Shown here one piece after another: positions 2,041 to 13,701 of a DNA stretch of 31,339 bases. The DNA is from a virus: positions 1 through 31,339 of the IMG/VR virus record IMGVR_UViG_3300025121_000112; one strand, given 5' to 3'. The translations under genes were made by a program, and so were the position numbers. The notes under the pieces are model-generated. The model was not told where the DNA came from. It saw only the letters and a program-made list of their open reading frames with translations, and searched no databases. The first letter of the stretch is position 1, and every line of letters begins with the position of its first letter.

Positions 2041-2645
2041 TGCCGCGAGAACAGAAAATAGTTTTAAAGGGCTGGGATCGTCCTCTGGTTGTGGATTGGG
2101 ACTTCCAGACGGGATTGCTCAGGCTTGAAATTCAGCGACTGGCACCAGGGCGTGGTAGCGGTAACTTAAAAGAAGCGTTTGAGCACTCCGATACGGCGGT
2201 CATAAACGAGGAAGGGAATGTAATCGATATCACCGTGGGGAAGCAACATAAGGCGTGGCCTTATGCGAAAATTCAGGAACACGGAGGAACCATACCGGCA
2301 TTCGATATCAGGAAGGCGCAACGTGCTTTTAAAAGTACATATCTGGCAATGGTACGCGGACGCAAAATCAGCGCGGGGCGATACGGCAGATGGTTCCGGC
2401 GGTCGTCCGTCGGCGGATATAAACCAGTTATGGTTGCATGGATCGGCGGCATGAAAAGATTCTTTACCAAGCGCGGCCCGATTGTAATCTTGGGTTCGCA
2501 TTACGTCGAGCGGGGCGTCCATAACTGGTGGCGCAAATTGTGCGGGGCATCAAGTGGCGTCGGTGGCGGTGCTCCGGTAGGCGGGGCAACGCGGACGGTC
2601 TTCTGGTCTAAGGAACATTACAGCCGGGGGATAGATAAAAGATGA
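2040..2645 (+). CDS. HK97-gp10-like neck / tail-completion protein, copy 1
   Basis: A 201-residue protein. The segment from about residue 40, GSGNLKEAF..., through YAKIQEHGGTI (about 76-86) to GSHYVERGV (about 151-159) follows the usual order of HK97-gp10-like and Mu-gpG-like virion morphogenesis proteins: an N-terminal 'TGxLRxSF'-type turn, a YAxIQExGG motif, and a C-terminal HYxxxA-type helix. Family members act at the neck during head-tail joining. The same three elements occur in the next gene, so the two look like tandem paralogs. The C-terminal 45 residues are Gly-rich and basic. The start overlaps the preceding stop by one base and the stop overlaps the next gene (ATGAGC at 2642). Confidence 0.6.
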   Translation: MPREQKIVLKGWDRPLVVDWDFQTGLLRLEIQRLAPGRGSGNLKEAFEHSDTAVINEEGNVIDITVGKQHKAWPYAKIQEHGGTIPAFDIRKAQRAFKSTYLAMVRGRKISAGRYGRWFRRSSVGGYKPVMVAWIGGMKRFFTKRGPIVILGSHYVERGVHNWWRKLCGASSGVGGGAPVGGATRTVFWSKEHYSRGIDKR

Positions 2646-3223
2646 GCAAACTTTCCGACATCATGGCTGCTACCGGCATGACCCGCGAACAGATACGCAG
2701 GGCGGTTGCGACAGGCTACGGGAGATTCAACCCTGACACATACGCACGTCTTAAATCCGAAGCCGACACCCGCCTTGCTAATTTATTCCAGGCGATGACT
2801 GAGCGGAGCCGTGGCTTAATCGCGCCGCTTGAAACGCAAGAGGACGCGGACAAACTTCGACACTTAATCCAAGACTTTGCGCCGGTCGATACGGGCGCAC
2901 TCAGGGATAGCTTCGACGATCCGCGCACGGTCGTTGTACAACCGGACGGGAATGTGATGATCGACTTCTCCCTGCCCTATGCGCGTATTCAGGACTTGGG
3001 CGGCACGATCCATCGGACGAGCAGCACCGGAAAATCTTACACGATCCGCATACCGGCGCAGCATTACGTCCAAAAGGCTGTGACCGCGTACAATGCGTCT
3101 AGAGACGCGGAGGATGTTCCTCTGCAAGTTATATCGGAAGGCGACATAGGTATCGGCATAGCTGGCCTGATAGCGCGTGGCATGGCTTTCATACGGTCGG
3201 TGAACCCGATAGGAGCGGCATAA
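2642..3223 (+). CDS. HK97-gp10-like neck protein, copy 2
   Basis: A 193-residue protein with a clearer gp10 signature: APVDTGALRDSF (about 80-91), LPYARIQDLGGTI (about 110-122), and IPAQHYVQKAV (about 138-148). Such proteins (HK97 gp10 / Mu gpG class) complete the head-tail interface. An N-terminal helical extension of about 75 residues precedes the core and a Gly/Ile-rich tail follows it. Overlaps of four bases upstream and one base downstream (TAATG) indicate coupled translation. With two gp10-like genes in a row, one may serve the usual neck role and the other an additional joint; which is which cannot be told. Confidence 0.7.
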   Translation: MSKLSDIMAATGMTREQIRRAVATGYGRFNPDTYARLKSEADTRLANLFQAMTERSRGLIAPLETQEDADKLRHLIQDFAPVDTGALRDSFDDPRTVVVQPDGNVMIDFSLPYARIQDLGGTIHRTSSTGKSYTIRIPAQHYVQKAVTAYNASRDAEDVPLQVISEGDIGIGIAGLIARGMAFIRSVNPIGAA

Positions 3224-3633
3224 TGGCAAGCGTACTATCGGCAATACAGACGCAACTTGTGACCGACGTCGAAACCACGTCGATTAATAAATGCTATGTC
3301 GGCAAGGCGTCGGATACCACGGTCGAAACGCCGTGGTGCGAAATGTACATTGTCAGCGGCAGCCAGTCCTATGACATGACCAGCGTGATAGACCGGGACA
3401 TGACGGTTATTCTGAATATACATGGGAAGTCACAGGAGCAGGTTGAGTTGGCCTCCGAGGAACTAATGAAGCTCTGGCGGAGCGCGGCATTACTCGCGGC
3501 ATTACGCGCCCTGAGCGTCCTGCATATTTATTGCGTGTCGGATTCCCCGGCAATCGTCTATTCCAATTCAGCGACGCAACAGCCGATCATGGCGGATATC
3601 GAATTCGCGATGACCGTTCGGTATACAGCATAA
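3223..3633 (+). CDS. Putative tail terminator protein
   Basis: A 136-residue protein in the position of the tail terminator (lambda gpU / SPP1 gp17 class), between gp10-like genes and the tail tube gene. Size and predicted alternation of helix and strand are normal for that class: an N-terminal helix, a strand ending RDMTVILNIHGKS, a helix EQVELASEELMKLW, and a final strand MADIEFAMTVRYTA. The last strand with an alternating pattern is typical of these ring-forming proteins. The role, capping the growing tail tube, is inferred from position and size. Confidence 0.55.
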   Translation: MASVLSAIQTQLVTDVETTSINKCYVGKASDTTVETPWCEMYIVSGSQSYDMTSVIDRDMTVILNIHGKSQEQVELASEELMKLWRSAALLAALRALSVLHIYCVSDSPAIVYSNSATQQPIMADIEFAMTVRYTA

Positions 3634-12498: not shown

Positions 12499-12556
12499 GC
12501 GCCGCCTCGTCGCCTATGCGCTGGCTTGTCACCACGTTATGCTCGATGCCGTTCAT
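12482..12556 (-). CDS. Mini-ORF ending in a QxxLF clamp-binding-like motif
   Basis: A 24-residue frame whose ATG overlaps the stop of frame 12553-13701 (ATGA) and sits next to the methyltransferase stop. The peptide ends AAQGKLF. Gln-x-x-Leu-Phe is the form of the bacterial sliding-clamp binding motif, which is often C-terminal. GGGCGGTG a few bases upstream may act as ribosome site. It may also be the relic of a longer gene broken by arrival of the radical SAM gene, because the same end sequence recurs at 11641. Real translation is uncertain. Confidence 0.3.
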   Translation of the reverse strand: MNGIEHNVVTSQRIGDEAAQGKLF

Positions 12557-12569
12557 TCATGCACCGCCC
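12553..12569. repeat. 17-bp direct repeat, far side of the methyltransferase-endonuclease module
   Basis: TCATTCATGCACCGCCC occurs here and at 14148-14164. In both places, read leftward, it encodes Ala-Val-His-Glu-stop at the end of a reading frame: the overlapping frame 12553-13701 here, and gene 14148-14519 there. The copies enclose the methyltransferase and homing endonuclease genes. Confidence 0.75.
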
Positions 12570-13701
12570 AATCGATTCCATGCTTCTCTAACCACTCGTG
12601 AAACCTGCCCGTTACCAATGGCTTTAAGTCGGTCCACCCGATAGGCCACCCCATGAGCCACTCGACCCACGAAGGATTTAGCTGTCCCCCTATCACTGTC
12701 TGTAAATCCTTCCCCCCCTGTCCATGCTCTCCCGGACTGTTCGCACATTGCCTTTTCGGTGTCGGGTAAGCTATTCGAGTCGCAAGGTGTTGCGCTTTCT
12801 CCGGCGGTCTGCCCGTCGTTCTCGGAAGCCCGAACTCCCCGTCCGATGCTTTCGGAGTCGGGTAAGTCTGCCGGGTCGATGTCCCACCATGTGCAACGGC
12901 ATTTGGCAGGCAGTCCCCCGGTGCATGTATCCCCCGCTGACTCATGCCCTTGTAATCGCGGGACTTCGGGGACGGCCATCTGACTTGCATCGATAGCGGA
13001 GTTCCGCCCTGTTTGTATTTCGTGTTCCGACCACCCGTGTCCCCACTGGTCGGGGTTGTCCACATTATTTGTTCTGCCAGACTCCCCGGTACATAATGCC
13101 GTCCTATCGATTCCCGATATGCTGTCCGCTTTTCTACTCTGTCCTCTCCCCCGGCTATTTGTTGTACAGTCGGAGTCAAATAAACGAATCCACAATCGTT
13201 TCCGTCTGTGCGGTGCTCCGACATCATCAGCCCCGATAACTCCCCACCGGCAATCATACCCCAGTTCGGAAATATCTCCAAAGATGCGCCCCATGTATCC
13301 TGAAACAAGCAGCCCTGGAACGTTCTCCAAGAGCGCGTATCGAGGTCGTACTTCGCCAATGATACGGATTGTTTCAGGCCACATGTTCCGTTCGTCGTCG
13401 GCTCCCCGTCGCTTGCCTGCGATCGAGAATGGTTGACACGGAAAACCCGCAGAGATGCAATCCACGATTCCACGCCACGGCTTTCCGTCGAAGGTTCGCA
13501 CATCATCCCAGATTGGGAAGGCTTCGAGGATACCTTCTTCTTGTCGCCGTAACAGGACTTCTCGGCAATACGGTTCGATTTCAACTGCGCACACGATTCG
13601 GTGTCCAAGCAGTTTTGCTCCGAGAATTCCTCCACCAGCACCAGCGAAGAGTGCAAGTTCTCTAATTCCGCTATCATTGTTAGGGATAAATACCATGTCA
13701 T
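12553..13701 (-). CDS. Overlapping reading frame across the methyltransferase gene (382 codons)
   Basis: A second frame on the same strand covers the methyltransferase gene from end to end. Its ATG at 13701 has the better ribosome-site spacing (AAGGGG, five bases) and overlaps the endonuclease stop (ATGA). The product has family-like features: SLAKYDLDTRSWRTFQGCLF (about 114-133), FPNWGMIAGGEL (about 144-155), repeated [WY]-P-[TS]-P motifs with nearby Asp (about 242, 280, 312), and LNPSWVEWLMGWPIGWTDLK (341-360). From memory, these motifs recur in phage proteins linked to C5 methyltransferases. Its C-terminal codons share phase with the 14148 repeat copy. Either this is a true overlapping gene or a striking constraint on the other frame. 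Confidence 0.55.
   Translation of the reverse strand: MTWYLSLTMIAELENLHSSLVLVEEFSEQNCLDTESCAQLKSNRIAEKSCYGDKKKVSSKPSQSGMMCEPSTESRGVESWIASLRVFRVNHSRSQASDGEPTTNGTCGLKQSVSLAKYDLDTRSWRTFQGCLFQDTWGASLEIFPNWGMIAGGELSGLMMSEHRTDGNDCGFVYLTPTVQQIAGGEDRVEKRTAYRESIGRHYVPGSLAEQIMWTTPTSGDTGGRNTKYKQGGTPLSMQVRWPSPKSRDYKGMSQRGIHAPGDCLPNAVAHGGTSTRQTYPTPKASDGEFGLPRTTGRPPEKAQHLATRIAYPTPKRQCANSPGEHGQGGKDLQTVIGGQLNPSWVEWLMGWPIGWTDLKPLVTGRFHEWLEKHGIDWAVHE
12557..13696 (-). CDS. DNA (cytosine-5) methyltransferase
   Basis: A 379-residue protein. Motifs in order: I, LALFAGAGGGILG (14-26), SAM binding; IV, GFPCQPFS (84-91) with catalytic Cys87; VI, LLENVPG (122-128); VIII, HRRKR (163-167); and X near the end, AIGNGQV (about 359-365). 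All keys are present, so it should transfer a methyl group to C5 of cytosine. The recognition domain lies between about 175 and 330 and is fully overlapped by a second reading frame, which may explain its low hydrophobicity and repeated polar segments. The start at 13696 lies one base after the endonuclease stop, 10 bases after AAGGGG. Likely role: protecting phage DNA from host nucleases. Confidence 0.9.
   Translation of the reverse strand: MVFIPNNDSGIRELALFAGAGGGILGAKLLGHRIVCAVEIEPYCREVLLRRQEEGILEAFPIWDDVRTFDGKPWRGIVDCISAGFPCQPFSIAGKRRGADDERNMWPETIRIIGEVRPRYALLENVPGLLVSGYMGRIFGDISELGYDCRWGVIGADDVGAPHRRKRLWIRLFDSDCTTNSRGRGQSRKADSISGIDRTALCTGESGRTNNVDNPDQWGHGWSEHEIQTGRNSAIDASQMAVPEVPRLQGHESAGDTCTGGLPAKCRCTWWDIDPADLPDSESIGRGVRASENDGQTAGESATPCDSNSLPDTEKAMCEQSGRAWTGGEGFTDSDRGTAKSFVGRVAHGVAYRVDRLKAIGNGQVSRVVREAWNRLGGA

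Follow-up and report, generated by a model that had tools for sequence, protein, structure and literature searches.

The window, the whole 31,339-nucleotide (31.3-kb) stretch of a virus record that we analyzed, carries two reading frames on its minus strand, alpha and beta, that cover the same DNA. The initial annotation had described two same-strand frames of 379 and 382 residues here, and both were recovered (Table 1). The stop codon (TGA) of an adjoining LAGLIDADG homing endonuclease gene overlaps the beta start as ATGA, and the whole cassette is flanked by a perfect 17-nt direct repeat that gives beta and the upstream open reading frame (ORF) an identical C-terminal AVHE, in line with the earlier remark that the end codons of beta share phase with a flanking repeat. 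The LAGLIDADG gene separates a remnant of the native start from the remainder of the pair, and translation would use the new start pair, provided that the insertion is not removed by splicing. A group I intron was sought around the endonuclease gene, with no credible Rfam match. We found no relative in which the site between the 17-nt repeats is empty; the only near relative (L451) is identical over 1,700 bases.

Table 1. Features of the overlapping pair and its surroundings, in window coordinates.
Feature	Position	Strand	Remarks
17-nt direct repeat GGGCGGTGCATGAATGA, upstream copy	14164-14148	-	
Native start remnant ATGAATGAGTTGGCA	14155-14141	-	Alpha MNELA, beta MSWH; matches the conserved start of relatives
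LAGLIDADG homing endonuclease ORF	14123-13698	-	PF00961, E 3.7e-06
Ribosome site AAGGGG	13712-13707	-	Serves both starts, best spaced for beta
Beta	13701-12553	-	382 aa, ATG start; +1 frame of alpha
Alpha	13696-12557	-	379 aa, ATG start
Alpha motif I, LALFAGAGGG	13628..13657	-	
Alpha motif IV, GFPCQPFS	13424..13447	-	Predicted catalytic Cys
Beta conserved hairpin AKYDLDTRSWRTFQ	13315..13356	-	Read over alpha motif VI; pLDDT 81-85
Alpha motif VI, LLENVPGL	13310..13333	-	
Alpha motif VIII region, APHRRKRLWI	13187..13216	-	
Beta candidate target-recognition region	12691..13185	-	Five aromatic-P-T/S-P-like units
Alpha linker, motif VIII to X	12632..13180	-	Hydrophilic; relaxed in relatives; no motif IX seen
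Beta module ASDGEFGLPRTTGRPPEKAQHLATRI	12772-12849	-	Inside the candidate target-recognition region
Beta motif IX GGQLNPSWVEWLMGWPIGWTDL	12625..12690	-	Alpha 4-fold divergence 0.02 in relatives
Alpha motif X, RLKAIGNGQV	12602..12631	-	Alpha frame constrained here in relatives
17-nt direct repeat GGGCGGTGCATGAATGA, downstream copy	12569-12553	-	

The two translations were searched separately. Alpha matched PF00145 (E 4.6e-36, residues 14-183) and phrog_363 (E 1.6e-64), and beta matched phrog_1008 (E 6.2e-28, residues 66-359) as well as phrog_26627, which supports the earlier impression that the second frame has features of phage proteins. Among the C5-cytosine methyltransferase features of PF00145, alpha has motifs I, IV (PCQ), VI (ENV), VIII, and X. 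The initial annotation had credited this frame with all catalytic motifs, and that point did not hold: the Pfam match stops at residue 183, motif IX and a target-recognition domain are not found within the alpha chain, and motif IX sits in the beta frame instead. Judged from its motifs, alpha is the predicted catalytic subunit of a C5-cytosine methyltransferase, with motifs I to VIII and X and without motif IX.

The +1 frame contains no stop codon across the 379 codons of alpha. When the synonymous codons of alpha were permuted 20,000 times, with its amino acids and codon counts held fixed, the +1 frame contained a mean of 6.28 stops, and it was free of stops in only 1 of the 20,000 permutations (5 of 20,000 under phage-wide codon usage). 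The +2 frame has 23 stops versus 20.4 expected, and the same test found stops as expected in the antisense frames. The openness of the beta frame in the window is beyond chance, which, together with the phage relatives of beta, upholds the claim of a full-length second coding frame beside the methyltransferase.

The ribosome site lies ∼5 nt before the beta ATG and ∼10 nt before that of alpha, so the second frame does have the better-placed site. In relatives, where the start reads (N)TGAATGAG, the ribosome site is found a median of 8 nt upstream of the beta ATG. The second codon of alpha is AAT, which creates the beta ATG, in 143 of 145 relative contexts, even though Asn codons within the same genes (AAT:AAC, 160:258) show that AAC is preferred elsewhere. 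This near-invariance, together with the spacing of the ribosome site, suggests that beta is probably initiated independently of alpha and perhaps more efficiently. The first alpha codon varies, being mostly ATG, GTG, or TTG and in 17 of 144 cases TTA, CTA, or CTT; in three loci with such an odd first codon that we read by eye (L013 to L015), an upstream alpha start is possible.

A beta query of IMG/VR returned at least 597 relatives, and in nearly all of the 80 that we fetched, both frames are open along the gene. Alpha-only queries were also used so that the sample was not selected on beta. Of the 90 alpha-selected loci, 67 have motif IX in the +1 frame and 3 have it in the alpha frame; across the catalytic core, the +1 frame has far fewer stops than expected. 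The split loci of this set have 0.52 stops versus 2.37 expected in the first 105 codons and 0 versus 1.60 expected in codons 106 to 160. For the first region, a one-chain actinophage control has 2.37 versus 2.31 expected, and ordinary bacterial restriction-modification enzymes have about as many +1 stops as expected. Neither of the two explanations that the initial annotation had weighed against a second gene applies: homologs picked by alpha keep the second frame open instead of having it full of stops, and matches to this frame are not frame-shifted methyltransferase annotations, since alpha is intact over the same DNA. A scan of genomes yielded 320 relatives, the best 80 of which belong to Pseudomonadota, Bacillota, Verrucomicrobiota, Planctomycetota, Spirochaetota, Actinomycetota, and others, and almost always have motif IX in the +1 frame of alpha. 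No free-standing beta was seen among the genome loci inspected; L209 and L214 have no alpha core and a beta at the contig edge.

We measured divergence by codon position in MAFFT codon alignments of 266 split loci (4,650 pairs, which are phylogenetically non-independent, so that the values are rates and not significance tests). Over motifs I to V, alpha positions 1/2/3 diverge by.134/.059/.302, indicating that alpha is constrained. Over the stretch from motif VIII to IX, beta positions 1/2/3 diverge by.205/.188/.415; here beta is constrained and alpha relaxed, with beta third positions (alpha first positions) changing most and alpha third positions least. The motif IX stretch has beta values of.124/.098/.291, at an alpha 4-fold divergence of 0.02, and past it, over motif X, constraint returns to alpha. 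The constrained frame thus switches from alpha (motifs I to VIII) to beta (variable region and motif IX) and back to alpha (motif X). Within the core, alpha 4-fold sites are held back at the conserved blocks of beta: their divergence is 0.16 over SSWRTHQCSL, the beta hairpin, and.28 to.34 over the beta N terminus and alignment columns 40 to 59, versus ∼0.55 in other stretches. Divergence over many homologs finds both frames constrained, region by region. Coding selection thus acts on both frames in the relatives, where beta also has a conserved start of its own. By these measures of selection and start conservation, beta looks like a real second gene.

In 12 sampled relatives (including L031, L091, L096, L102, L106, L125, L135, L164, and L168), motif X lies in the frame of beta, and in those inspected, alpha ends after motif VIII or before motif X. 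These 12 rows fall in 12 separate places on the alpha tree, at least 7 of them forced by well-supported branches. Where motif X is in the beta frame, a complete enzyme would require the production of beta. The beta frame of L031 (2986-4488) also has an extra stretch of ∼110 residues between motifs IX and X.

Searches of Pfam and NCBIfam with beta returned nothing, and 117 beta relatives gave only scattered single-member matches to Pfam. A profile search of solved structures found no convincing PDB relative of beta; its one match, to a designed repeat protein, was judged spurious. Modeled alone from a 117-row alignment, beta was mostly unconfident (pLDDT 56, pTM 0.26), and the model had no Foldseek match at E 0.001. 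The repeated aromatic-Pro-(Thr/Ser)-Pro motifs previously claimed for the second frame are present, with five repeats like these at beta residues 175, 214, 242, 280, and 312. The PTP units vary in number, which suggests that recognition modules can be exchanged. The module within this region is shared in frame with a one-chain methyltransferase, L274 (E 3e-14), the common pattern being ASDxxxGLPRTxGRPPEKAxxLATR; a profile match between the beta segment and one-chain enzymes had an E of 9e-14. In L274, the module is followed by motifs IX and X, all in one chain, and in one-chain enzymes of the actinophage type, this PTP-rich segment shares a single frame with motifs IX and X. The sole part of the beta profile that aligned with monomeric enzymes, LNPSWVEWLMGWPIGWTD, lands on their motif IX, RRLTPKECERLQGFPDDWTA, in a match that is short (20 columns, E 0.003, probability 10%) and weak by itself. 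When modeled, L261, another one-chain enzyme, showed the M.HhaI fold (Z 20.6, rmsd 3.5, 231 aligned), with an unconfident PTP region. Beta is most likely the target-recognition region and motif IX of a split enzyme. Where the initial annotation had imagined an unknown partner such as a specificity or anti-restriction factor, “specificity” was close; the unknown partner and the anti-restriction role were not supported.

The presence in beta of motif IX and of a segment shared with one-chain enzymes, together with the movement of motif X between frames, makes one split enzyme the simplest reading. We consider it highly probable that alpha and beta are the two subunits of a single C5-cytosine DNA methyltransferase, a variant of the M.EcoHK31I kind with co-extensive genes. 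We infer its workings throughout (translation, assembly, activity, recognition sequence, and protective role). One ribosome site would load ribosomes that start at either the beta ATG (13701) or the alpha ATG (13696), five bases on, and the same RNA would be read in two frames. Alpha would form the large domain, with motifs I to VIII and X, for AdoMet binding, the catalytic Cys, and methyl transfer; beta would form the small domain, with the variable target-recognition region and the motif IX that alpha lacks. The subunits would then come together to form the active enzyme, as those of M.EcoHK31I do, with beta supplying the specificity, and the enzyme would most likely methylate the phage's own DNA against host restriction.

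Several observations count against the split-enzyme reading: the model of beta alone is mostly unconfident and has no fold match, beta has no Pfam or convincing PDB relative, its motif IX profile match is short, the target-recognition domain of M.EcoHK31I was predicted in the large subunit, and a nested frame also overlies monomers that bear motif IX. These monomers are phage enzymes (L338 to L416, with motifs IX and X in alpha) that we had taken as a control. Over their codons 51 to 150, there are 0 +1 stops in 79 of 79 loci (expected, 1.7 plus 3.3), with +2 stops as expected, although these loci are mutually related and do not represent 79 independent events. Their alpha 4-fold divergence is.03 to.43 over codons 45 to 194 versus.48 to.63 in windows outside, and over LSDILEEEVDQKYFL alpha positions 1/2/3 diverge by.33/.06/.07. 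The nested frame overlies motifs IV to VIII, its predicted product is ∼140 to 170 aa long (for example, alpha codons 45 to 195 of L339), and phrog_16143 matches it; in phage MM1, it occupies positions 1453-1878 of L417. With this frame lying over monomers that have motif IX in alpha, a missing small domain cannot explain all of beta. The nested product resembles the first half of beta, in part because the alphas are homologous, and a common function is not implied. We offer tentatively, leaning slightly against it, the idea that a +1-frame protein is an old general feature of phage C5 methyltransferases that does not depend on the split, its shared first half having its own function (cofactor, chaperone, regulator, or counter-defence), and that the split class arose once this protein had acquired the target-recognition domain and motif IX. 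Longer methyltransferase ORFs of Oscillibacter valericigenes (L446, L448, and L449) have another +1 frame, which starts near codon 103 to 108 and has the pattern (S)LSxILQxxxPxKYYLSxxACxGILRRAxxRGKxLP; it is possibly a third kind of overlap.

It is unlikely that the enzyme is split but that only the last ∼200 to 270 beta codons are translated, from an internal start, with the open first part as a by-product. The small subunit of M.EcoHK31I is much shorter than the large one, and the beta frame is closed upstream in some relatives (such as L137, L141, L156, and L160), both of which favor such a start; the near-invariant 5' ATG with its ribosome site and the constrained blocks at the beta N terminus and columns 40 to 59 do not. 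We regard as very unlikely a reading in which beta acts on its own as an anti-restriction, regulatory, or chaperone factor, printed over the methyltransferase and no part of the enzyme. In the class to which the window belongs, motif IX is missing from alpha and present in beta, motif X shifts into the beta frame in several lineages, and the C-terminal half of beta is in frame within one-chain enzymes. What a separate protein would account for is the constrained nested +1 frame over codons ∼45 to 195 of monomers whose alpha retains motifs IX and X; the MM1 record labels such a frame “C5 methyltransferase beta subunit.” The first half of beta may have a dual role. A programmed frameshift would have ribosomes start in alpha and shift +1 into beta after motif VIII, giving one chain with motifs I to VIII, the target-recognition domain, and motif IX. 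A single +1 shift would complete the enzyme where motif X is in beta (for example, in L091, L135, and L102); in the window, however, motif X is in alpha and two shifts would be needed, and neither the near-invariant beta ATG (143/145) with its well-spaced ribosome site nor the depletion of stops in the first 105 beta codons (0.52 versus 2.37 expected) is accounted for, which makes this reading highly improbable. G+C-rich genes do have long spurious frames, but the permutation, codon-position, stop-depletion, and start tests contradict a second frame left open by composition and the amino acids of alpha, as do the near-expected stops of bacterial restriction-modification enzymes, leaving chance a negligible probability.

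Hundreds of phages and bacteria share this arrangement, and the records that we checked mostly annotate one protein or misname it. In Acidovorax phage Alfacinha1 (L003), the “cytosine-specific methyltransferase” annotation (2321-3454) is the beta frame, and the catalytic frame (2284-3438) is unannotated; Escherichia coli strain PT62 has the pair with only alpha annotated. In E. coli PCP07014 (L337, 1501-2262), the pair is annotated as a pseudogene, and each frame is interrupted by an internal stop. These findings suggest that the two-frame C5 methyltransferase, known from E. coli as an oddity, is a widespread coding mode of phages and prophages. If this reading is right, specificity or activity predicted from the annotated protein alone would leave out the recognition domain, and “the MTase” would be inactive when cloned without its second frame. 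The pair is also a clean and often repeated natural case of overlapping genes, in which the constrained frame switches and motif X changes frames in at least seven lineages.

The gene for the small subunit of M.EcoHK31I is nested within that for the large subunit, in a different frame. The beta of the window likewise overlaps alpha in another frame. The enzyme was reportedly described by Lee, Kam and Shaw in 1995 (NAR 23:103). Canonical C5 enzymes have a large domain with motifs I to VIII and X and a small domain with the target-recognition domain and motif IX, and when they are split between motif VIII and the target-recognition domain, the parts complement well (PMC5944983). M.EcoHK31I is a two-polypeptide C5 methyltransferase recognizing YGGCCR, whose large subunit has motifs I to VIII and X, whereas its smaller polypeptide has motif IX alone (PMC3404938). 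As in that enzyme, motif IX is absent from alpha (large) and present in beta. Unlike in M.EcoHK31I, the two frames of the window are co-extensive, and only 5 nt separate their starts (4 nt in most relatives). The predicted target-recognition domain of M.EcoHK31I was placed in the large subunit (PMC3404938), whereas the variable region here is constrained in beta, and the shared module lies there. The two-subunit M.AquI is split between motifs VIII and IX (PMC3404938) and thereby resembles relatives such as L091, in which motifs IX and X are both in beta; the window differs in that motif X stays in alpha and the genes overlap over their full length.

Streptococcus phage MM1 (DQ113772, orf13/orf14) has, like the window, a +1 frame over its C5 methyltransferase gene, which in MM1 is nested and annotated as the beta subunit of an alpha/beta pair, but its alpha itself has motifs IX and X, and its beta is 141 aa long without motif IX. 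The families phrog_1008, which matches the window beta, and phrog_16143, which matches the nested frame of the monomers, are both labeled “DNA methyltransferase,” although their products here hold no catalytic motif. In the open-access literature on overlapping C5 methyltransferase genes, we found, besides M.EcoHK31I and M.AquI, only the out-of-frame HNH gene inside another phage methylase (ShiLan gp65), which is a different thing (PMC11855218). What seems newly recognized is the breadth of the arrangement, its co-extensive, start-coupled layout, and the nested, constrained +1 frame in one-chain phage enzymes that have all motifs.
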